The position numbers were made by a program, and so were the translations under genes. The notes below the pieces were generated by a model. It searched no databases. It had not been told where the DNA came from and was given only the letters and a program-made list of their open reading frames with translations. A DNA stretch of 64,000 bases from Leptolyngbya sp. SIO1E4 (GTDB lineage: Bacteria > Cyanobacteriota > Cyanobacteriia > Phormidesmidales > Phormidesmidaceae), in contig JAAHFU020000001.1 of the NCBI GenBank assembly GCA_010672825.2, forward strand, positions 2,356,001 to 2,420,000, given 5' to 3'. Position 1 is the stretch's first letter. Each line of letters begins with the position of its first letter. Positions 33,086-46,007 of this stretch are shown here, piece after piece.

Positions 33086-35089
33086 TTAAAGGCTGCGCGT
33101 GTAAGCAGGGGCGATTCCAGGGGGAGATTGGGGCTTGGTGAGCAAAACATCTCGTAAGAAACGGGCTGCTGCTCGCTGGGTTAAGGTGCCAATGATCCGC
33201 TGTCCCATTTCGCGAGTTTCAGATTTGGTCAGGACTTGGGGGAGCTGACGGGCGACTAACGTGGCATCGAACCCTTTGGTCTGTCTCAAGATATCCACAA
33301 TCCGTAGAATCCGTGCCATGTTGCTGTCGCTGTCGGATGAAGACGCATGGGAGGCTACGGTAGGAGCGGTTGACGATGTTGCGGCTGAATCACTCAGGCC
33401 TAATCGCTGTTGAATGTTTTGCTGGACGGTCTTCACCATGTTCTGCCCGAAGTTGTCTAATTCCTTAGCTACTTCATCTGCGATGCGATCGCGAATAAAC
33501 TCTCCTCGTTCTGAAAAGAGAAAGTCTAGGGTTTGATTCAAGACCCGCTCCATATCGTAATCATCGCTATCCCGCGCATTTCTCAGCAGATTCTCTAAAC
33601 GATTCCAGCGAAATTCACCCCCCTTGAACAGCAATTCTTGCAGAGAAGTTCGTAGCTCAGGAGCCGAATCGGTCAAGAGTCGTTTAGCAACATACGGATA
33701 TGCCTTGCTGAGCACCTTAAAGTCTGGGTCAACGTTAATGGCGATCCCCTCTAGGGTGACGAGCGATCGAATAATCAGCGCATAGTAAGCGGGTACCCGG
33801 AAAGGATACTCATACATGAGTGCAGAGAACTCGTCGGTAATGCTCTTGAAGTTCAGTTCTGCGACACTGGCTCCTAGTGCATTGTTAAAGACTTCAGCCA
33901 GTGCTGGAATAATCGGAGTCAGATTTGTATCTTGGGTCAAAAACTCGAGCTTGACGTAGTCATGGGCGAGGCCTTCAAAATCCCGATTGACCATATGTAC
34001 GACAGCTTCTATCAGGCCGTAGCGCTGATAGGGTTTAACCTGACTCATCATGCCAAAGTCCAGGTATGCCAACTTGCCATCGGGCATAGCTAGTAAGTTG
34101 CCAGGGTGGGGATCAGCATGAAAAAAGCCATGCTCTAGCAATTGCCGTAAAGAACATTGAACCCCCACGTCAATGAGATAGGTAGCGTCGATGCCTTGTT
34201 GCTGTAGTTTTTCTAAATTGGTGAGTTTAGTCCCATCAACCCATTCCATCGTGAGGACGCGCCGAGCAGTATAGTCTAAGTAAATACCCGGAACATAAAT
34301 ATCTTTAAGATGCCCATAGAGGTTAGCGAAGCGAATGGCATTCTCTCCCTCATGGGTATAGTCCATCTCTTCAAAGATGCGGGCCCCGAACTCGTCCATG
34401 ATGCCAACGAGATCGCTTCGAATTCGAGAGATGTTGCTGGTTGCCCATTGGGCTAACTGTCTCAGAATATAAAGATCTAGAGTGATGCGTTGAGCCAAAC
34501 CAGGTCTCTGAACCTTAACGGCAACCGCTTCCCCCGTTTTTAAACGGCCTTTGTAAACTTGACCCAGCGAAGCGGCGGCTACTGGATTGGGCGACAGCTC
34601 TGCGTAGATCTCTAAGGGAGAAGCGCCCAATTCTTCCTTGATATAGCGGAAAGCGACCTCGTTTGGAAACGGTGGCAGTTGATCTTGTAGACGCGTCAAC
34701 TCTTCTAAATAGATGGGAGGCACTAAGTCAGGACGCGTCGACAGAGCTTGACCGATTTTGATATAGGCTGGCCCTAAACGGGTTAACAGCTCCCGTAATC
34801 GCTCCGCTTGCCGTCGCTGTGTTTTTTCTGAAATGTGGCCTTGTCGATTCCACCAGGTTTGCAGAAAAAATAAGCAGAAAGGGCCAATAACCGTCAGCAG
34901 GCGGCCCAGGACTCTGAAAGGGCGTCGCTTGTAGTAAGCAAGAATGGCCTCAGGATCGTAAGATAAGCCTTCGAACGGATCAAACCGATGAGGAGCCTGG
35001 GTTGACGCCAATCTAGAGACTTCAGGGGTAACTTGAGGGAGGGGATTAGCAACTGCTGAAGTATCGAGTGATGTCGTAGTCTGGGTCAC
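33086..35089 (-). CDS. ABC1/AarF/UbiB family atypical kinase
   Basis: 667-residue protein of the UbiB/ADCK family, linked to quinone, prenyl-lipid and membrane homeostasis; plastoglobule members occur in plants. It has the Ala-rich nucleotide loop (AAASLGQVYKG), the signature region KIGQALSTRPDLVPPIYLEEL, the catalytic-type FHADPHPGNLLAMPDG and the metal site LDFGMM. C-terminal helices follow. The start is GTG at 35089, with GAGG about eight bases upstream. Just before it a 65-codon frame ends inside this ribosome site. Cyanobacteria carry several paralogues; which one this is cannot be told. Confidence 0.92.
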   Translation of the reverse strand: MTQTTTSLDTSAVANPLPQVTPEVSRLASTQAPHRFDPFEGLSYDPEAILAYYKRRPFRVLGRLLTVIGPFCLFFLQTWWNRQGHISEKTQRRQAERLRELLTRLGPAYIKIGQALSTRPDLVPPIYLEELTRLQDQLPPFPNEVAFRYIKEELGASPLEIYAELSPNPVAAASLGQVYKGRLKTGEAVAVKVQRPGLAQRITLDLYILRQLAQWATSNISRIRSDLVGIMDEFGARIFEEMDYTHEGENAIRFANLYGHLKDIYVPGIYLDYTARRVLTMEWVDGTKLTNLEKLQQQGIDATYLIDVGVQCSLRQLLEHGFFHADPHPGNLLAMPDGKLAYLDFGMMSQVKPYQRYGLIEAVVHMVNRDFEGLAHDYVKLEFLTQDTNLTPIIPALAEVFNNALGASVAELNFKSITDEFSALMYEYPFRVPAYYALIIRSLVTLEGIAINVDPDFKVLSKAYPYVAKRLLTDSAPELRTSLQELLFKGGEFRWNRLENLLRNARDSDDYDMERVLNQTLDFLFSERGEFIRDRIADEVAKELDNFGQNMVKTVQQNIQQRLGLSDSAATSSTAPTVASHASSSDSDSNMARILRIVDILRQTKGFDATLVARQLPQVLTKSETREMGQRIIGTLTQRAAARFLRDVLLTKPQSPPGIAPAYTRSL

Positions 35090-35099
35090 CGTTACTGCC

Positions 35100-35297
35100 T
35101 CAGGGTGAGTTTTCTTTGTTAACTATTGTAATAAATCGTTCCCAAAATTCTCTATGACGTTGGAGGGAGAGTTTGCCGAACTGTAGTTCAGGTGTTCTTG
35201 ATTGTGGTAGCGTTTGGATACTCTCTTGACTGTGATAGCGTTTGAGTGACCTCAGGGAATGAGCCAATTTCGGAAGACTCAAGTCTGTGGAAGTCAC
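35100..35297 (-). CDS. Possible small ORF upstream of UbiB-family gene
   Basis: 65 codons from a GTG, ending ten bases before the UbiB-family start, with its TGA overlapping that gene's GAGG ribosome site, an arrangement compatible with translational coupling. The product (starting MTSTDLSLPKLAHSLRS, basic and helical) is not recognised. The frame contains the 21-bp direct repeats, whose period of 28 is out of frame, which argues that the DNA rather than the peptide is under constraint. I give it low confidence. Confidence 0.25.
   Translation of the reverse strand: MTSTDLSLPKLAHSLRSLKRYHSQESIQTLPQSRTPELQFGKLSLQRHREFWERFITIVNKENSP
35196..35244. promoter_or_regulatory. 21-bp direct repeats between UbiB-family gene and recN
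   Basis: TCTTGATTGTGGTAGCGTTTG (35196-35216) and TCTTGACTGTGATAGCGTTTG (35224-35244) differ at two positions, period 28. They sit in the divergent interval, 107-155 bases from the UbiB-family start and about 150 from recN. A regulator site is plausible. Confidence 0.45.
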
Positions 35298-35389
35298 GCA
35301 GTCCTTTGGAGATTCGTGTCATAGTGTTTCTGGGTAATTGATGGCTCCTGTATCGTTTCTGTTCTGCCTATTCATGAGTTCCGCGTTGA

Positions 35390-37150
35390 ATGCTGTGTTC
35401 TCTGAAGATTGAAAATTTTGCGCTGATTGATCGTCTGACGTTGGATCTGCAGTCTGGGTTAAACGTATTGACTGGGGAAACAGGGGCAGGCAAGTCGATT
35501 GTGCTAGATGCGCTGGATGCTGTCTTAGGGGGACGGGTCAGCCAGCGTATGGTGCGCTCTGGGGAGAAAAAAGCCCTTATAGAAGCGACCTTTAAAATCA
35601 ACGATCGCATTGAAACCTGGCTTAAAACACATGATGTGCCCGTAGAGGGCGATCTGCTATTGTGTGCTCGAGAACTCACCGCCGGGCAAAATACCGTGCG
35701 CAGCCGGTCTCGTTTGAATGGGGTGGCTGTTACCAAGCCGCAAGTGGAGTCTTTGCGGTTGCAACTGGTCGAAATAACTGCCCAAGGGCAAACCCTGCAG
35801 GTGGGGGATTCCCAGATGCAGCTAGCCTGGTTAGATGGGGTTGGCGGAGAGCCAGTGGCGAAACAGCGACATATAGTGGCTGTTAGCTATGCTGCGATGG
35901 CTGAGGCTAAAACCCAGCTAGAAAGGCGACGCCGTGCCGAGCAACAGCGTCAAGAGCAGCTGGACCTGTTTGACTATCAGTGGCGGGAACTCAGTGCTGT
36001 GGGGCTAGAAGACCCGGAAGAACTGGTGCAACTTGAGCAAGAGCAACAGCGGTTGAGTCATGCGGTAGAGCTACAGCAGCAAAGCTATCAGGTGTATCAG
36101 ACGCTCTATGAAAATGATCAAAATGCGCCTGCCTGTGCGGATCTCCTAGGGACAGCGACTCAAACCCTGGAAGACATGCTGCAGTATGACGATTCTGTCG
36201 AGCCAATTTTAGACATGGTGAACGATGCCCTGGCTCAGATTGAAGAAGCCGGGCGACAAATTGCAGCCTATAGTGAAGGTATTGAGACAGATCCTCAGCG
36301 GCTGCAGATGATTGAAGAACGCATCAGTCAACTCAAGCAGCTGTGTCGTAAATATGGGCGATCGCTGCCTGATTTAATCGAGTACGCCCAAGAAATTCAA
36401 GCATCGTTAGATCTTTTAAATGGTGAGGGGCAGTCTCTCGAATCCCTAGAAGCTGCTCATCAGGCCAGCCTCAAAACCCTAGGGCGTGACTGCCAGAAGT
36501 TAACGAAACTGCGTCAGCAGGCAGCCAAAAGCTTGGAAACCCGCTTGATTGAAGAACTAAAGCCGCTGGCGATGGAGCGCGTACAGTTTCAGGTCAAAAT
36601 TTCACCGATTGACCCTACGATCACTGGGGCCGATCAGATTCAGTTTTTGTTCAGTCCTAACCCAGGGGAACCGCTACAGCCTCTGGTAGAAACTGCCTCT
36701 GGTGGAGAAATGAGTCGTTTTCTGCTGGCGCTCAAAGCCTGTCTCTCTCAGTTAGACGTTGTCAGTACGCTGGTATTTGATGAGGTAGACGTAGGGGTCT
36801 CGGGTCGCGTAGCCCAGGCGATCGCGGAAAAACTCCATGAACTAGGGCGATCTCAGCAAGTGCTGTGCGTGACTCACCAACCGATGGTCGCCGCTATGGC
36901 AGATGCCCACTTCCGGGTGGGCAAAGAAGTGATTGAGCAGGCGAAGACGACCCCGAAGAGAAAGCGCAAGTCTCAAAAAGAGTCAGGAACAGCGACAGCC
37001 GAGCAAGTGCGGACAGTTGTGCGCATTACACCTTTAGATAGAGGGATGCGCCGGGAGGAACTGGCCCAGCTAGCGGGTGGTCAATCCCATCAAGAGGCGT
37101 TGTCTTTTGCAGATGCGCTACTACAGCAAGCCGAGTCTCTCCGCCAGTGA
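35390..37150 (+). CDS. recN: DNA repair protein RecN
   Basis: SMC-like ATPase that acts early in double-strand break repair, tethering DNA ends for RecA. The 586 residues start with the canonical LKIENFALIDRLTLDL, Walker A TGETGAGKSIVLDAL, a long central coiled coil (LEQEQQRLSHAVELQQQSY and others), and the C-terminal signature SGGEMSRFLLALK with Walker B LVFDEVDVGVSG. Near the C-terminus a short basic insertion (TTPKRKRKSQKESG) precedes the last 60 residues. recA is 16 kb away. No LexA-type box was evident directly upstream. Confidence 0.96.
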   Translation: MLCSLKIENFALIDRLTLDLQSGLNVLTGETGAGKSIVLDALDAVLGGRVSQRMVRSGEKKALIEATFKINDRIETWLKTHDVPVEGDLLLCARELTAGQNTVRSRSRLNGVAVTKPQVESLRLQLVEITAQGQTLQVGDSQMQLAWLDGVGGEPVAKQRHIVAVSYAAMAEAKTQLERRRRAEQQRQEQLDLFDYQWRELSAVGLEDPEELVQLEQEQQRLSHAVELQQQSYQVYQTLYENDQNAPACADLLGTATQTLEDMLQYDDSVEPILDMVNDALAQIEEAGRQIAAYSEGIETDPQRLQMIEERISQLKQLCRKYGRSLPDLIEYAQEIQASLDLLNGEGQSLESLEAAHQASLKTLGRDCQKLTKLRQQAAKSLETRLIEELKPLAMERVQFQVKISPIDPTITGADQIQFLFSPNPGEPLQPLVETASGGEMSRFLLALKACLSQLDVVSTLVFDEVDVGVSGRVAQAIAEKLHELGRSQQVLCVTHQPMVAAMADAHFRVGKEVIEQAKTTPKRKRKSQKESGTATAEQVRTVVRITPLDRGMRREELAQLAGGQSHQEALSFADALLQQAESLRQ

Positions 37151-38893: not shown

Positions 38894-38934
38894 TACTTAA
38901 CCTCCCATACTTAACCTCCCATACTTAACGTCCC
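38893..38934. repeat. 14-bp tandem repeat, three copies
   Basis: ATACTTAACCTCCC, ATACTTAACCTCCC, ATACTTAACGTCCC stand head to tail, from the antiporter stop codon into the last codons of the convergent kinase gene. The array fills the entire space between two convergent genes and includes the kinase stop codon. Confidence 0.85.
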
Positions 38935-40859
38935 AATTTGTTCCGTATTTGTTGACGTAGGCTCTGAGCATCCGCGTAGTTGGGGTTTAAGGCAATTGCC
39001 TGATCGATGGATGCAATGGCCTCATCAAAGCGCCGCAAATTCCACAGTGCGGCTCCTCGGTTACTCCAGGCTTCTGCTAAGTCGGCCTGAATCTCAATGG
39101 CTCGATCAAATGAATTCAGGGCTTCCTCAGGCCGCTTTAACTGCATGAGTGCGGTTCCTCGATTATTCCAGGCTTCTGCTAAGTCGGGCTGCAGGTCAAT
39201 TGCCTGGTCAAAGAGTGTTAACGCTTCTCCATGGCGCTGCTGCTGCTGTAGGGCAACCCCCTTGCTGGAGAAAGGTCTGGGATCATTCCCGTCTAACGCG
39301 ATCGCCTGATCACAGGCTGCCAGCGCTAATTCTGCTTGCTGGAGCTGGTTCAAACTGTAGCAGCGTCCCCAGTGGGCGGTGGCAGATTCTGGGTGATGTG
39401 CGATCGCCTGGTCATATATGTCCAGAGCTTGCTGATGCTGATTGCCTTTCCGCAGCTCTTCGGCCTGTTTTAGAAGGTCGGTTGCAGTTGGAGATGCCTC
39501 TGCAGGGGGGGCTGCGTCTGCAGGATCAGCGGTTTCGGCAGGATCGGCTGCTTCGGCAGGTGATGGGGCCTCCTCTTCAGAGGGTGACGGAGCCTCCGCA
39601 GAAGAGGGGATGGCCACGACCGGAGTCTCAGGGTGTAAAAATGAGAAGGACTTGACCATAAATAGCAGCGCTCCTAAACCAATCAGCCCTGCCAACAGCC
39701 ACCGCCGCCGCTCGGGTAGCCCCTGCAGCACCGATGCAACAGCCAGCGTTGAGCCTTTGGGTTTTTGGGAAGTGCTGAACTCTCGGGTTGGAGAGCGTCC
39801 CCCAGCTGCTAACGTCGCTTCGCTGAGATGGTAAGGCTTGGTCAGGGTTTGCCCAGACTGGGCTGATGCTGAATTTTCAACCGCCAAAGTAGAATCGTAG
39901 GCACCATCAAATTCTTGAGTTGGGAACGGTATATCCGGGGGACTTAGCGGAGCTGTCCCAGGCAAGTACCAGCGCTCGGGGATCTTTGCTTGCAGCTCTG
40001 AGGGCAGTTCTTGTAATGCTGCTAGCGCTTTGGCAGCCGTTGGGTAGCGAGCTCGAAAGTCGTAGCACACCATGCGATCAAGCACTTCAGCAAACGCTTC
40101 ATCGACCATCGGGGCATCTGTACGCCAGTCAAGCTCACTCGTGTGGGGATCTTGGCCCAAGTGTTTAGGCTGAACACCGGTTAATGCCTGAATACCGATA
40201 ACACCTACCGCGTATACATCACTACTGAAATGAGGGGTGCCTCCGAGTTGCTCATTCGGCATGTAGCCCTGGGTGCCAATGGAAATCGTTAAATTGGTAC
40301 GGCCAGTTTGAGGATTAAAGAACTGGGTGTTGACTTGTTTAACGGCCCCAAAATCAATGAGAACAATGCGGCCATCGTGACGGCGGCAAAGCAGGTTGGA
40401 AGGTTTGATGTCGCGGTGGATTACATTCTGCTCATGGACAAAGGCCAAAACCTGAAACATGTCTTGCAGAAAAGCAATCACTCGCCCCTGCGACCAAGGT
40501 TCTCCATTGGCTAACACCTGATTGAGCGGTTCTCCGTCAATATATTCCTGGGCGAGATAAAACTCCTGATCTTCCTCAAAGTGGGCCATGAGGCGAGGAA
40601 TTTGGTCGTGATTGCCCAATGCGTATAGTACTTTTGCCTCTGTATCAAAAAGGCGTTGGGCGGTTTTTAGGCTGGCTTCATCGCTGACCTGCGGCTTGAA
40701 CTGTTTAATCACGCAGATAGGATGGCCAGGTAAATGGAAATCTTGCGCTAAAAAGGTTTGGCCAAATCCCCCTTTTCCCAGCTGCTGAATAATCTGGTAT
40801 CTGCCGCCGAGGGGGGTATCTGACGGCTTTACTGGCAACTGTTTTAAGAAATTCAACAC
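38925..40859 (-). CDS. Ser/Thr protein kinase with TPR tail
   Basis: Pkn2-like kinase of 644 residues. The kinase domain (about 20-285) is complete: GKGGFG loop (29-34), ATP-binding K52, catalytic HRDIKPSN (148-155) and DFG (169-171), with an activation loop TISIGTQGYMPNEQ. A single membrane span (RRRWLLAGLIGLGALLFMV, about 388-406) follows, then a Pro/Glu/Ala-rich tether and four TPR units (QALDIYDQAIAHHPESATAHWG, ...AWNNRGTALMQLKRPEEAL). TPRs imply extracytoplasmic or lumenal protein binding as the sensing part. It is a paralogue of the next kinase upstream, with catalytic motifs at identical residue numbers. Confidence 0.95.
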   Translation of the reverse strand: MLNFLKQLPVKPSDTPLGGRYQIIQQLGKGGFGQTFLAQDFHLPGHPICVIKQFKPQVSDEASLKTAQRLFDTEAKVLYALGNHDQIPRLMAHFEEDQEFYLAQEYIDGEPLNQVLANGEPWSQGRVIAFLQDMFQVLAFVHEQNVIHRDIKPSNLLCRRHDGRIVLIDFGAVKQVNTQFFNPQTGRTNLTISIGTQGYMPNEQLGGTPHFSSDVYAVGVIGIQALTGVQPKHLGQDPHTSELDWRTDAPMVDEAFAEVLDRMVCYDFRARYPTAAKALAALQELPSELQAKIPERWYLPGTAPLSPPDIPFPTQEFDGAYDSTLAVENSASAQSGQTLTKPYHLSEATLAAGGRSPTREFSTSQKPKGSTLAVASVLQGLPERRRWLLAGLIGLGALLFMVKSFSFLHPETPVVAIPSSAEAPSPSEEEAPSPAEAADPAETADPADAAPPAEASPTATDLLKQAEELRKGNQHQQALDIYDQAIAHHPESATAHWGRCYSLNQLQQAELALAACDQAIALDGNDPRPFSSKGVALQQQQRHGEALTLFDQAIDLQPDLAEAWNNRGTALMQLKRPEEALNSFDRAIEIQADLAEAWSNRGAALWNLRRFDEAIASIDQAIALNPNYADAQSLRQQIRNKLGR

Positions 40860-41335
40860 GCCTCAACCTACATGGGAAAGGGACTCATAATTCCAACAAT
40901 CACTGTGGATGCAGATGCCCTACTCATCCTCAGCCCTGAAATGACTCACATCGTCTGAGAGGTTTAGGGCAAGATCCCCTGGTGGCTCTGCCTAGGGCCT
41001 TAGCCACCACTGCGGTTAAGAGATTCATTAAGACATTTAGGGATAGTCAGAATCTCCCTTTGACGGCGTTCGGGCATGTTCTGAGAACATGGGGACGACG
41101 TTAGATGAATGGTCTAAACTGGCTGGCAAGGGGCTACTTTAACCGCGTGACGAATGAGTCTTCGGTATGCCAAGACGGTGCTTTTGAGGAGATGTTCCTA
41201 GGCCACGATGCATCGGGCTTTACGATGAACACGTTACCGTTTGATCTGGAAGGTATTGTGAAATTACTGCGTCTCCGTGTCCTTGGTGTGGGTGCTTCTA
41301 CCCAAACGTCAGGAGCCTGAAATCCAGACGCCCGG
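40860..41335. other. Spacer between two kinase genes, with operator-like palindrome
   Basis: 476 bases. The plus-strand 71-codon frame at 41105-41320 has no recognisable product and is not called. The 17-base palindrome at 41075-41091 is listed separately. No terminator for the upstream kinase is evident. Confidence 0.45.
41075..41091. promoter_or_regulatory. 17-bp perfect palindrome
   Basis: CATGTTCT-G-AGAACATG is perfectly symmetrical around one base. It lies about 215 bases upstream of the TPR-kinase start. The form is typical of a dimeric regulator site, but I cannot assign the protein. Confidence 0.5.
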
Positions 41336-43150
41336 CTATCGAGCTTGAATTACGCGGACAAAGGCTGACGCCACAATCCTCGGCTGGCCGTTGATGAGCT
41401 GCACTGTGAAAGTGCGTTCCTCCTGTTGGGTAGAGCCGTCGCTGTAGACATAGGTATTTTGTCCCAATAACTCCAGGGTGTTTGCCGTTTGGGTCGTAAC
41501 CTGCAAATTGTCCACAGAGACCTGCTGAAACTGCTGGAAGAAATTAGGGTCAAACTGTTGGGCTAAATCACCCGCGGATAGGGCTTGGGCAGCGTCCCAT
41601 GACTGATTCGACACGTGGCTATAAAAGGCTGAAACAGTGGTTTGGGCGGTGTCTGGCGTCAGGGCACCGTCGGCTTCGCCACCGATGAAAGTATCTTCAG
41701 ATTGTGAAGTAGCAGGTGCTTCTGCCGGGGACGGCGAGATAGCTTCAGGGGCAGATTCCGGGGAGAGGGTTTCTGAGAGCGGCGGCGAGATGGGGGCTGC
41801 TTCTGGCGAGAGGGATTCATCTGAAATCTCAGGGGCTGGAGCGGCGGCTGTATTCGGTAAAGGCGTCTCGTTAGCGGGAGGAGCGGCTCCGTCTGGGGCG
41901 GTCGTGGCAGTGTCAATGGTAGGGGCAGATGTGCAAGCCCGCCAGGTGAGCAGCCCCATTCCAAAAACGGCGACGATCGCCACCATGGCTGCAGGTAAAG
42001 CGCGCTTCCGGGGCGGCGCTGGTGGCCGCACCATTTCAGTGGCCATAGAGCTTTTGGTTGTCCTACTGGAGGCCGCCACGGGCGCGTGGGGATGTCGCCC
42101 TAGAACGGGAACCGTCTGGCTCGTGTGTGAGGCAGGAAAGGGGGGGGAGGATGCGGGAGGGGCTGGTGTAGGAGCTGGCGTGGGTGTGGGTGCGGGCGCA
42201 TAGGCCTGGGGCGATCGCTGAGGAGATTGGGGAGAAGGGGGGCCCAGATCTACCTTTACTGCCGTCAAGGGTGGGATGAATCGGGCCAGCTCATAGGGGA
42301 GCGTTTGAAGCGCAGATAGGACTTCCCCTGCTGCGGCATACCGTTCTCGGTGGTCATATCGCACCATGTAATCTAGCAGGGCGATCAGGTTGGGATTGGC
42401 CTGCGGCGCGTAGACGTGCCAATCAATTTCGTTCGTGTAAGGATCCAGGGGAAGCTTTTTAGGGTGGCGTCCTGTCAGCGCTTGAATACCCATGATGCCA
42501 ACAGCGTAGACATCGCTACTGAACTGAGGTCGACCTGCCCGTTGCTCATTGGGCATGTAGCCTTGGGTGCCAATGGAAATGGTATGGCTAATGCCAGGAT
42601 CGGCAGTTGCTAGCTGGGTGCTAGCCTGTTTCACGGCACCAAAATCAATGAGCACAATCCGGTTGTCTTTGCTGCGGCGAATCAGATTGGAGGGTTTCAG
42701 ATCCCGATGAATGACCCGGTGCCCATGGACAAAGGCTAAGGTTCCTAAGATATCGCCGAGAAACGCCACCACATTCTCGTCTCCCCAAGGCGTGGCTGGG
42801 GCAAATTCTTCGGTTAGGGAATGGCCTTCGATAAATTCCTGGGCCAGATAAAATTCTTTACTGTCCTCAAAGTGAGCCAACAGCTGTGGAATTTGAGGGT
42901 GGGAGCCTAACTCGTATAACACTTGAGCTTCTGTATCGAAGAGCCGCCGGGCGACTTGTAGCCCTTGGGTGCCACTGACCTGAGGCTTGAGCTGTTTGAC
43001 AACACACACGGGTTGCCCCGGCAGGTGCAAATCTTGGGCGTAGAACGTTTGGCCAAAGCCACCGGCCCCCAACTGCTGAATAATTTTGTAGCGTCCTCCC
43101 AGAGGTTGATCTGATCCTGGTCGGAGAGACCGAAGAAAATTCAGTTCCAT
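41336..43150 (-). CDS. Ser/Thr protein kinase with membrane span and C-terminal NTF2-like domain
   Basis: 604-residue kinase, complete catalytic domain with K52, HRDLKPSN (148-155) and DFG (169-171), the same numbering as its neighbour, so the pair arose by duplication. After the kinase come a Pro/Ala/Thr repeat region (PAPTPTPAPTPAPPAS), a membrane span (ALPAAMVAIVAVFGMGLLTW), a second Pro/Glu/Ser-rich linker and a C-terminal domain of about 100 residues (AVSAFYS-type start: TVSAFYSHVSNQSWDAAQAL, ending RIVASAFVRVIQAR) resembling NTF2-like/ARC6-type folds. It probably senses something outside the cytoplasm. It is 159 bases downstream of the channel gene on the same strand. Confidence 0.94.
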   Translation of the reverse strand: MELNFLRSLRPGSDQPLGGRYKIIQQLGAGGFGQTFYAQDLHLPGQPVCVVKQLKPQVSGTQGLQVARRLFDTEAQVLYELGSHPQIPQLLAHFEDSKEFYLAQEFIEGHSLTEEFAPATPWGDENVVAFLGDILGTLAFVHGHRVIHRDLKPSNLIRRSKDNRIVLIDFGAVKQASTQLATADPGISHTISIGTQGYMPNEQRAGRPQFSSDVYAVGIMGIQALTGRHPKKLPLDPYTNEIDWHVYAPQANPNLIALLDYMVRYDHRERYAAAGEVLSALQTLPYELARFIPPLTAVKVDLGPPSPQSPQRSPQAYAPAPTPTPAPTPAPPASSPPFPASHTSQTVPVLGRHPHAPVAASSRTTKSSMATEMVRPPAPPRKRALPAAMVAIVAVFGMGLLTWRACTSAPTIDTATTAPDGAAPPANETPLPNTAAAPAPEISDESLSPEAAPISPPLSETLSPESAPEAISPSPAEAPATSQSEDTFIGGEADGALTPDTAQTTVSAFYSHVSNQSWDAAQALSAGDLAQQFDPNFFQQFQQVSVDNLQVTTQTANTLELLGQNTYVYSDGSTQQEERTFTVQLINGQPRIVASAFVRVIQAR

Positions 43151-43309
43151 AAGAGAACTCCACGCAAAAACTGCCTCACTGTACGGGTGGATTGGGTTAA
43201 GCGCTTCTCAGTTACATCAATGATCTACTCCATCAGTGATCTACAGAGAACCGTTGCCTGCAAAATTCACCCTACCCCTTGGATCCTGTTTTCGTTCTGT
43301 GCTTAAGCG

Positions 43310-45487
43310 CTATGGTAACCCTATCTCAGTGATATCTTCATTTAATGTCATTGACTCTGACCTGGAGGCATGATCTGGGGTCAGATCAGCAGAGCGATCT
43401 CGATAAAATTGATAAAAATCGTCTCCTGCTTCAAAGTCTTGGGTGTGCATAACGCCATGAATCAGCCCTTTTTGGAGGAGCCATTGACCCACTAAAATAG
43501 CGCCTTCTCGCGTGTAGTCTCGCTGTTTTACCAGCCACTCTACCGCTGCTGACCCTGTAAAACAAGCTGAATAGACGTTGGACTCGTCATGATAGTCGTG
43601 CACGTCAACACCCTCTTCTCCCTGCATGGCTTCAGCAAGCGCTTCTAAATCGAGATTGGCCAAGATGTCGGCAGCAGGCGAGGTTATCTGTGATCGGGCC
43701 TCAGCGGGTTTTGCTAGAGGGGTAACCGTGGGTGGCTGGGGCGAGGGTGAGGGTGAATGGGTGAAATGAGCCGTGGAGACGCCCATTATCCGATGCTTGA
43801 GGAGGCCAACAAGTTCGTCTAACTGTGGCGATCGCAAGTGTAAGTCTCTTTGAGGAAAGGGAATCTCAATACCGTACCGGCGGAGACTGGCCTCGATTTC
43901 ATAGTTCAAATCGCTCCTCACGCGAAATTGCTTGCGTGGCTCTCCCGTCCAGACCATCAGTTCAAAATTCAGCGAACTTTCTCCAAAGCCCTGAAACCAG
44001 ACCTCTGGCTCCGGCCGCAGCAATACTTCGGGATGCCGCCTGATGGCTTCTAATAGGGCTGTTTTAACCAACGCAATATCGGAGCCATAGGCCACACCAA
44101 CGGGCACCCGCAAACGAGACACGGGGCTGCCGTGGCTCCAGTTGATGACCTCGCTCTCTAAAAATCGGGAGTTAGGAACGATAATTGTGACCTGATCTAG
44201 GGTGCAAATTTCAGTGCTGCGGGCTCCGACCCGTTTCACAATACCCACTAACTCGCCAACATTGACGAAATCGCCGACCTGGATAGGGCGCTCCAGGGTA
44301 ATGATGAAGCCACTGATGAAATTATTGGTGATATTCTGTACGCCAAAACCAATTCCAACCCCCAGTACGCTTGCCAAGATCGCTAGGGAGCTAGCATCAA
44401 TCCCCCAGATTTGCAGCAAAATAATCGCCCCTAAAAAGATCAGGGCGTACTGGATTAAAACGCTGAGGATATCTTGAATGCGCTGATCGACCCTGGCTCG
44501 GCTCAGAACGTAGATCCGAAAGAGCTGGGCGATTGCGTTGGCCACGAACCAAAGCCCCACGGTCAACCCCAGCAAGAGCAGCAGCTCTAGTGCCGAGTAG
44601 CGATCGCCCCCTAAATCAAAAATCTTGGCCGTCAGAAAATTAGAAATGGTGTAGCGCCAGCTGCGGGCCTGAGGAAAAATATCTGTAACGTAAAGAAAAA
44701 CGGTAAGCCATAGCCCGACCTTGAGGCCCAGTAACGCTAACTGCCAAAACAGCCTGATCGGTTTTTCCCATTCGGTGAAGGGGTTGGCGGTGTACTCAAG
44801 CCAGCGGTTCAAATATCGGGAGCCCAAGCGCCCCACAATCCGCAGTATCAGGTGAATCGCGATCGCACCCCCCAGCAGAATCAGGCTGTAGAGGGTCGCT
44901 TGACGAAGATAGCTGGGGGTGCGTTCGAGTTGTCCCTGACGGAGAGCGGCCTCGAGTTCCTCGGCCCAAAGCTGCGCTTGTCGCTTGGGCTGACGCCCTG
45001 GCGTAATCACATCGGCTCGCGTAATCGTGACCAGAATTTCTTCACTATGCTGGCTCTGAAGATAAACCAGAGCATCGCTTTGCACGACCTTGACGACTGT
45101 CGGGTCAGTTAACTGCACCTCCTGCTTAAGCTCATTATTAATTTGGCGAGCCCGCTCCGCTGCCGTTAAATTCTCTGTCCCATTGATGGCAAAAACAGTG
45201 CGACCATCCACCACAATCGAGGCCTCGCCAACCGCAGTCTCCCCAACCGCAGTCTCCCCAACCGCAGCTTCCCTATTAGGAGCGGGCGGGGTGAACTGGG
45301 ATTGGGCGGGTTGCGACCCTAACCCCCAGGTCAAACAGGTCAAAACCAACAGGGCCAAGCATAGCCCGCCCCATTGCAGTAGCCGACGGGGCCAGCGCTT
45401 AAACCTACGTCGTCGTGGTGAGGATTTCAAGGGGCCCAACCTCTGCGCCAAAGTTCTCGATAGACGATTCAGGAGATGGAGGCTCAA
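43310..45487 (-). CDS. MscS-family mechanosensitive channel fused to C-terminal DEP domain
   Basis: 725-residue membrane channel. After an N-terminal basic segment and signal/anchor span (about 38-54) comes a periplasmic part with a short AVGET repeat (74-88). Membrane spans near 200-218, 245-268 and 300-322 lead to the MscS pore and beta domain (340-555; QYALIFLGAIILLQIWGIDASSLAIL broken here as QYALIFLGAIILL..., ASVLGVGIGFGVQN, PIQVGDFVNVGELVG). After a Pro linker, residues 625-697 form a DEP domain (SACFTGSAAVEWLV, ILVGQWLLQKGLIHGV, FYQFYRD). DEP domains bind membranes or signalling partners, so gating may be coupled to signalling. The 5' end overlaps the FHA gene by about 83 bases. A TTG at 45430 with AGAGG upstream is a possible alternative start. 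Confidence 0.9.
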   Translation of the reverse strand: MSLHLLNRLSRTLAQRLGPLKSSPRRRRFKRWPRRLLQWGGLCLALLVLTCLTWGLGSQPAQSQFTPPAPNREAAVGETAVGETAVGEASIVVDGRTVFAINGTENLTAAERARQINNELKQEVQLTDPTVVKVVQSDALVYLQSQHSEEILVTITRADVITPGRQPKRQAQLWAEELEAALRQGQLERTPSYLRQATLYSLILLGGAIAIHLILRIVGRLGSRYLNRWLEYTANPFTEWEKPIRLFWQLALLGLKVGLWLTVFLYVTDIFPQARSWRYTISNFLTAKIFDLGGDRYSALELLLLLGLTVGLWFVANAIAQLFRIYVLSRARVDQRIQDILSVLIQYALIFLGAIILLQIWGIDASSLAILASVLGVGIGFGVQNITNNFISGFIITLERPIQVGDFVNVGELVGIVKRVGARSTEICTLDQVTIIVPNSRFLESEVINWSHGSPVSRLRVPVGVAYGSDIALVKTALLEAIRRHPEVLLRPEPEVWFQGFGESSLNFELMVWTGEPRKQFRVRSDLNYEIEASLRRYGIEIPFPQRDLHLRSPQLDELVGLLKHRIMGVSTAHFTHSPSPSPQPPTVTPLAKPAEARSQITSPAADILANLDLEALAEAMQGEEGVDVHDYHDESNVYSACFTGSAAVEWLVKQRDYTREGAILVGQWLLQKGLIHGVMHTQDFEAGDDFYQFYRDRSADLTPDHASRSESMTLNEDITEIGLP
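45227..45271. repeat. 15-bp in-frame tandem repeat in channel gene
   Basis: Three near-identical 15-base units (plus-strand core CCAACCGCAGTCTC) encode AVGET-AVGET-AVGEA in the periplasmic segment of the channel. The period is a multiple of three, so copy number can vary without breaking the frame. Confidence 0.8.
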
Positions 45488-46007
45488 CCTGAGGGCGAGC
45501 TTGGTCGAGTAAGGCCCGCGCTGCGGCCCATAGCCCCAATCCCATCAACAAGAGAATGCCACCTCCAACCAGCCAAACCAAGATAGTGTTGGGATTAGCC
45601 CCTGTCCCCGGTTTAGCGAGGTGACTCCGATCCTGATTCAATTCGGTGGCGTCCGCTTCGCCATCATTCACAACGGCTGCGGTAATTTTGAAGGGGCCAA
45701 TTCTGAGGGTATCTTTGGGTGTAAAAATTTGCCCATCTTGTCGGATGGGTCGTCCATTGAGAAAGGTTCCATTGGCACTTTTGTCAGTGATATGAAGCTG
45801 TCGATTGACAACAGTCACTAAGGCGTGCCAGCGAGAAACCTGTTTATGAACCAGTTCCAAATGAGAGACGGGTTGATTGCCCAACTGTTCTGGCATTCTG
45901 GCTGATTCGCGTCCAATGGCAATGGGCGCTTGAAGGGAAGAACGATGGGATTGTCCTGTTACAGGATCCTCCCAACTCAGTTGGATAACGACAGGCTCAC
46001 CTGACAT
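45405..46007 (-). CDS. FHA-domain protein with C-terminal membrane span
   Basis: About 200 residues. The N-terminal FHA domain, a phospho-threonine reader, shows IAIGRESA, SRWHALV and KSANGTFLNGRPI, the core phosphopeptide-binding residues (GR, SxxH, NG). A charged linker leads to one membrane span (NTILVWLVGGGILLLMGLGLW) and a short acidic tail. ATG 46007 is chosen: AGGAG lies five bases upstream. Its 3' end overlaps the start of the DEP-channel gene, so the two are almost certainly co-transcribed and perhaps translationally coupled. The natural reading is that it docks phosphorylated partners, possibly of the nearby kinases, at the membrane. Confidence 0.9.
   Translation of the reverse strand: MSGEPVVIQLSWEDPVTGQSHRSSLQAPIAIGRESARMPEQLGNQPVSHLELVHKQVSRWHALVTVVNRQLHITDKSANGTFLNGRPIRQDGQIFTPKDTLRIGPFKITAAVVNDGEADATELNQDRSHLAKPGTGANPNTILVWLVGGGILLLMGLGLWAAARALLDQARPQVEPPSPESSIENFGAEVGPLEILTTTT

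Follow-up and report, generated by a model that had tools for sequence, protein, structure and literature searches.

The mycobacterial PknB - FhaA - MviN system offers a case in which an FHA protein is recruited to a phosphorylated membrane protein, and GarA and OdhI are FHA switches under the control of a phosphorylated threonine located in a flexible segment. Bacterial MscS channels are usually portrayed as physical valves. We report here on a cyanobacterial locus in which genes for a membrane-anchored FHA protein, for an MscS channel with a C-terminal DEP domain (MscS-DEP), and for receptor-type Ser/Thr kinases lie side by side. The main finding, which is well supported, is that the genes for the FHA protein, the MscS-DEP channel and a receptor kinase are conserved together as one genetic module. 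Regulation of the channel by the kinase through the FHA protein would be the most economical reading of this module, and on the strength of the sequences we see about an even chance that some form of kinase-to-FHA-to-channel circuit operates in the cyanobacterial membrane.

The module resembles PknB - FhaA - MviN in combining a receptor Ser/Thr kinase that bears an extracytoplasmic sensor, an FHA reader and an integral membrane effector. It differs in that the effector is an MscS channel with DEP, that the FHA protein has a transmembrane (TM) helix of its own, and that the kinase tail consists of TPR repeats or is of unknown family (CHASE2 in the distant family f16 described below), where PknB has PASTA. 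With GarA and OdhI it shares an FHA fold with pocket residues and a threonine, T121, in a disordered segment beside the FHA domain; in the module, however, this threonine is C-terminal to the domain, a TM helix is present, and T121 is a candidate phosphosite. As for the channel, it has the beta and C-terminal vestibule domains of MscK, MscM and MscS, and both sequence comparison and Foldseek ranking place MscK closest to it among solved structures; unlike MscK, it carries a DEP domain at its C terminus, its periplasmic part is different and smaller, and its length is 709 aa versus 1120 aa. According to a table entry in PMC2246266, bacterial mechanosensitive channels with a cyclic-nucleotide-binding domain exist; as far as that entry goes, these are likewise channels with an added regulatory domain, which in the module is DEP instead and is accompanied by adjoining FHA and kinase genes. 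PMC9330825 presents animal GPR155 as a transporter with a C-terminal DEP domain, that is, a membrane transport protein built in this respect like the module channel, but of an unrelated transporter family. Among the matches listed from the open-licence literature, no title or beginning of an abstract concerned an MscS-DEP protein or an FHA gene beside MscS.

The window, by which we mean the whole stretch of DNA analysed, comprises 64,000 nt of Leptolyngbya sp. SIO1E4 (GCA_010672825.2, JAAHFU020000001.1, positions 2,356,001-2,420,000). The genome that holds it is 8.2 Mb long, with 25 kinase domains above the Pfam cut-off and two DEP matches, both within MscS-type proteins. An initial annotation had described a run of genes at 38925-46007 for two paralogous transmembrane kinases, an MscS channel with DEP and a membrane-spanning FHA protein, and this description holds: the ORF list contains four minus-strand frames in a row, Pfam recovers FHA in one, MscS and DEP in another and Pkinase in two, the kinase domains are 62% identical with one hydrophobic stretch in each kinase, and hydropathy places a single hydrophobic stretch C-terminal to the FHA domain. 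The FHA-TM gene (45405..46007; all features given here are on the minus strand) encodes, according to Pfam, hydropathy and AlphaFold2, an N-terminal FHA domain, a disordered linker, one TM helix (45507..45587, from AlphaFold2 and hydropathy) and a short tail. Its start is placed at ATG 46007 (200 aa), with 'caggag' just 5' of it; GTG 46013 is also possible. The channel gene (likely 709 aa, 43310..45439) contains the MscS beta and C-terminal, cytoplasmic vestibule domains at 43862..44335 (Pfam), and its DEP-matching segment lies at 43406..43603 (Pfam, AlphaFold2 and solved relatives). Kinase 2 (41336..43150, 604 aa) consists of a catalytic domain (42332..43090, with HRDLKPSN and DFG), a TM segment and a tail of unknown family, and kinase 1 (38925..40859, 644 aa) of a catalytic domain (40047..40799, with HRDIKPSN and DFG), a TM segment and TPR repeats.

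The FHA and channel genes do overlap, as had been noted, but the extent of 83 bases holds only for the first TTG (45487), which would give a 725-aa channel. The internal TTG 45439, from which the channel has 709 aa, aligns with the start TTG of all four close relatives (L033-L036), where the overlap is 32 bases; because of this match, the true overlap in the window is likelier to be 35 bases. Kinase 2 is separated from the channel by 159 bases and kinase 1 from kinase 2 by 476 bases, and a single transcript for all four genes is therefore not implied. Scanning for promoters and terminators yielded fewer matches than shuffled sequence did, and Rfam at the gathering threshold gave zero matches in the window. 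At the stop codon of kinase 1, GGGAGGTTAAGTAT is repeated in tandem (window 38895-38930), as two exact copies and one near copy.

Conservation was surveyed in 388 genomes of the class. Frames were ORFs of at least 80 aa retained under a simple non-overlap rule, and because of this rule they include small false genes. A DEP match was present in 73 of the 388 genomes and an FHA-TM profile match (E <= 1e-15) in at least 124, most of the latter, judged by the length of the frame and the range matched, representing no more than the FHA domain of a longer protein. FHA-TM matches of 165 bits or more occurred in at least 20 genomes, and a DEP match adjoins in 19 of the 20 listed, the exception being G075, where the FHA gene is mid-contig, apart from the channel. 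In G002, G015 and G033 the DEP match lies beside FHA-TM, though it is sub-threshold for Pfam (28.7-32.3 bits). At the 23 loci of named relatives (L093-L115), the FHA gene adjoins MscS-DEP in 22, and the remaining one is ended by its contig. After removal of duplicates (13 of these 23 are genomes already counted, and were entered once), 29 cyanobacterial loci were counted, and in all 29 MscS-DEP is the next gene downstream of the FHA gene and shares its strand. Measured between frames, the two lie -107 to +168 nt apart, so that their closeness is conserved and their overlap is not. Organisms with the module include Leptolyngbya sp. PCC 7375, Coleofasciculus sp. LEGE 07092, Adonisia turfae and Moorena bouillonii. 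Left out of the counts were DEP hits in a frame without an MscS match (L075, L079, L081, L085, L086), a channel split in two frames (L048), and MscS proteins without a DEP match (L049-L051). L110, whose contig stops about 400 bases past the FHA gene, is outside the 29, and L061 and L062 (G075), with FHA gene and channel on different contigs and the channel at a contig end, are outside both the 29 and the 24 FHA-less loci considered below.

Nineteen of the 29 FHA-linked loci have a kinase gene at most four frames away, versus 2 of 24 FHA-less MscS-DEP loci (Fisher p 2e-5, common descent ignored), the 24 being a retrieved subset, in some members of which (L044, L074, L078 and L083 among them) a contig end falls inside these four frames, and the count becoming 3 of 25 with L062. 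Ten of the 29 have no kinase within four frames: a contig end truncates one side of L036, L040, L104, L105 and L109, flanking frames are few in L103, and L038, L064, L065 and L106 show no such truncation. Placement of the kinase varies. It is divergent and upstream of FHA in 14 loci, among them L039 and L056 (a small doubtful frame between) and L053 (the kinase broken into two frames), and the two Moorena loci have a divergent kinase with an aminotransferase-type gene between (domain tested in L114). It is downstream, on the strand of the channel, in 7 loci including the window, at a distance of 2.9 kb in L035; L033, L034, L035 and L053 have both divergent and downstream kinases, and both kinases are downstream in the window only. 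The gene order described in the initial annotation is thus kept by relatives in its core, FHA plus MscS-DEP at every counted locus and a kinase at 19, but the exact co-directional four-gene order is found only in the window among the 29, the TPR-type kinase elsewhere being usually divergent. A more distant FHA-TM family, f16 (144-163 bits, at least six genomes, two of them Gloeomargaritales, L116 and L117), has a co-directional kinase gene immediately upstream of FHA-TM in 6 of 6 loci (L066-L071), with zero MscS matches within six frames in all six. Both f16 kinases tested carry an N-terminal CHASE2 domain, so that the FHA protein is partnered by a sensor-bearing kinase even where the sensor is of another type.

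This variable proximity bears on an alternative in which the FHA protein and the channel are the functional pair and the kinases are more loosely attached, the FHA domain reading sites made by any kinase and the nearby kinases serving other substrates. We judge it unlikely, though not negligible: the pairing of FHA and channel in 29 of 29 loci, set against a kinase in 19, and the supply of kinase domains in the window's genome agree with it, but kinase proximity tracks the FHA gene, being common with it and rare without it, and persists in the f16 loci where there is no channel.

The FHA domain of the window protein scores 43.7 bits against a Pfam cut-off of 20.7. Residues R33, S58, R59, H61 and N79, which we take to be the phospho-threonine pocket of the FHA domain, are invariant in all 26 FHA-TM proteins aligned, some of them near copies. 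Equally invariant in the 26 is T121 (codon 45645..45647), in the consensus D-x-N-A/S-T-E/Q-L/I-N; residues 117-137, which include it, have AlphaFold2 pLDDT below 50 and lie in the disordered linker between FHA and TM helix, where T121 is a candidate phospho-acceptor. In seven longer FHA proteins, the T121 column holds Thr in three (L122, L126, L127), Ser in two and Lys in two; since three share the threonine, T121 is perhaps not special to the FHA-TM family, and the site may be a wider feature. Outside cyanobacteria, FHA-TM profile matches (L128-L135) span only part of the FHA domain. Solved relatives of the profile include GarA, OdhI and TB39.8, the last being FhaA.

Such relatives, the invariant threonine in a disordered linker and the channel-free FHA-kinase pairs of f16 are all consistent with another alternative, namely that FHA protein and kinase are a self-contained switch of the GarA/OdhI type, in which phospho-T121 would occupy its own FHA domain and the output would not be gating, the channel being co-transcribed to meet a common need, for instance under osmotic stress. 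It seems to us rather improbable, as the FHA gene is nevertheless directly upstream of the channel at all 29 loci (G075 differs), which argues for contact or for a need for matched amounts, and as the threonine, shared with some longer FHA proteins, may not be family-specific.

For regulation of the channel through the FHA protein, the reading we prefer, the channel itself has to be considered. It belongs to the MscS superfamily according to Pfam (PF00924, 73.8 bits; PF21082, 76.6 bits), and hydropathy gives five or six hydrophobic stretches. Its closest solved relatives are MscK, MscM and MscS; searched with the AlphaFold2 model, Foldseek ranks MscK first (E 2e-18, with MscS at E 1e-14), at TM-scores that are low across the whole model (0.2-0.25 by query). 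This model (39 rows) has a mean pLDDT of 77.4 and a pTM of 0.49, with pLDDT of 80-96 in the DEP region (601-680) and of 54-66 in the pore region (about 351-390). The DEP domain scores 46.6 bits against a Pfam cut-off of 32.7, and solved relatives of the tail by sequence are the DEP domains of P-Rex1 (E 2.5e-9) and DEPTOR (E 4e-7), and also IML1. Phosphorylation of the DEP tail by a kinase, as initially suggested, would have little sequence support, because the channel-to-DEP linker has zero threonines at 70% conservation or more in the channel alignment, and T643 inside DEP (709-aa numbering), 90% conserved in FHA-linked channels, is also 74% conserved in the others. T121 in the FHA linker therefore appears the better candidate phosphosite. 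Threonines such as T381, T418 and T498 (709-aa numbering) were set aside as phosphosites: they differ between FHA-linked and FHA-less channels, but lie within the channel part and are maybe clade marks only.

Three observations concern MscS-DEP proteins more generally. The FHA-linked channels of the Leptolyngbya/Adonisia branch (G002, G015, G023, G033) have a far more divergent DEP (28.7-35.5 bits) than the second, FHA-less MscS-DEP copies of G000, G015, G033 and G038 (80.8-91.4 bits), which suggests a changed partner or relaxed constraint in that branch. The second MscS-DEP gene of G002 (L048, G002:C5:2741521-2743342) is apparently in two overlapping frames, and in G033 and G015 the related genes each occupy a single frame. 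In G028 (L047:8700-17010), an FHA-less MscS-DEP gene adjoins a GGDEF-EAL gene, followed by recN and an ABC1 kinase-like gene; recN and ABC1 genes also lie a few kilobases from MscS-DEP in the window (33086-37150).

In the channel tree, FHA linkage needs 2 changes versus 13.4 in shuffles. The FHA-linked channels are nearly one clade, with the FHA-less L076 and L084 (one family) nested, and may have had a single origin; 16 FHA-less MscS-DEP channels, including the second copy of the window's genome (L042), form a separate branch. In this tree and in that of the kinases, L062 is labelled FHA-linked although its FHA gene sits elsewhere. Because the loci share descent, the 29-locus counts are not independent. 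As a neighbour control, proteins encoded within seven frames were compared all against all (E 1e-15, half of the shorter protein covered): the only families to exceed two of the 16 lineage labels are the channel (16), FHA (16) and the kinase (9), the labels consisting of 9 family labels of the search tool and 7 assigned to named records, and the three Symploca labels perhaps representing one family. That proximity merely reflects descent or transfer, with no functional meaning, is disfavoured and in our view quite improbable; the near-single clade and the shared descent of the loci would accord with it, but other neighbour families are common to at most two lineage labels, and proximity is kept though the kinase may be divergent, co-directional or one gene away.

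Both window kinases retain the glycine loop, the lysine, HRDxKPSN and DFG. With a PF00069 match and one hydrophobic stretch between kinase domain and tail, they are Hanks-type receptor Ser/Thr kinases; they do not classify as PASTA (PknB/Stk1) kinases, NCBIfam NF033483 reaching 117 and 107.5 bits against a cut-off of 450, over the kinase part only. Two juxtamembrane columns, those of T340 and T371 in kinase 1, are occupied by threonine in 87% and 78% of 23 kinases, and were set aside as phosphosites since these regions look variable. The kinase 1 domain was searched in 20 genomes, 19 besides the window's own. The most similar kinase is the cluster kinase in 12 of these 19, and in G075, G097 and G258 the cluster kinase ranks second, 3.7-6.1 bits behind the best, the second-ranked kinase of G075 being the one that adjoins the channel. 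The closest kinase lies outside the cluster in G016; G054, G083 and G350 have no equally close kinase (321 bits or less), their best match being outside the cluster. In the kinase tree, a single group of 33 rows unites 23 of the 30 cluster kinases with 10 other paralogues, and the remaining 7 cluster kinases are those of f16; the cluster kinases thus do not make up an exclusive clade. The branching order of the downstream kinases (L062, L063, L037, window, L035, L033/L034) matches that of the channels, several of the forks behind this match being weakly supported. In G374 (L053:1-7000), both module kinases look broken, kinase 1 being in two frames and kinase 2 having 154 aa; FHA and channel are nevertheless each in one frame.

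That the kinases are anti-phage proteins of PD-T4-6 type, which the PADLOC matches of both (best 318 and 309 bits) might indicate, was rejected as very improbable, since the control, three module-free cyanobacterial kinases from other places, matches the best model just as well or better (321-346 bits), so that the models catch the kinase family in general, and since FHA and channel have no PADLOC match at E 0.001. PD-T4-6 models matched ordinary cyanobacterial receptor-type kinases at 309-346 bits in 6 of 6 tested, and may over-call defence kinases in cyanobacteria.

We return to regulation of the channel by a kinase via the FHA protein. One or two receptor-type Ser/Thr kinases would sense something outside the plasma membrane through the TPR, CHASE2 or other extracytoplasmic part, given a topology that we infer beyond hydropathy, and would phosphorylate threonines on the cytoplasmic side. 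The membrane-tethered FHA protein would read a phospho-threonine, most likely in its own T121 linker, or on the kinase, and would pass this phospho-state to the neighbouring MscS-DEP channel by a contact in which the cytoplasmic DEP domain is the likely docking part. In its most specific version, the receptor kinase would set the phospho-T121 state of the FHA adaptor, which would bind the DEP tail and shift MscS gating; we put this version forward tentatively, as possible though doubtful in its details.

If true, an external chemical or wall signal would be coupled to turgor release. With this module, phospho-signalling to a mechanosensitive channel can be put to the test in bacteria, and both bacterial DEP domains and membrane-anchored FHA proteins would gain a role.
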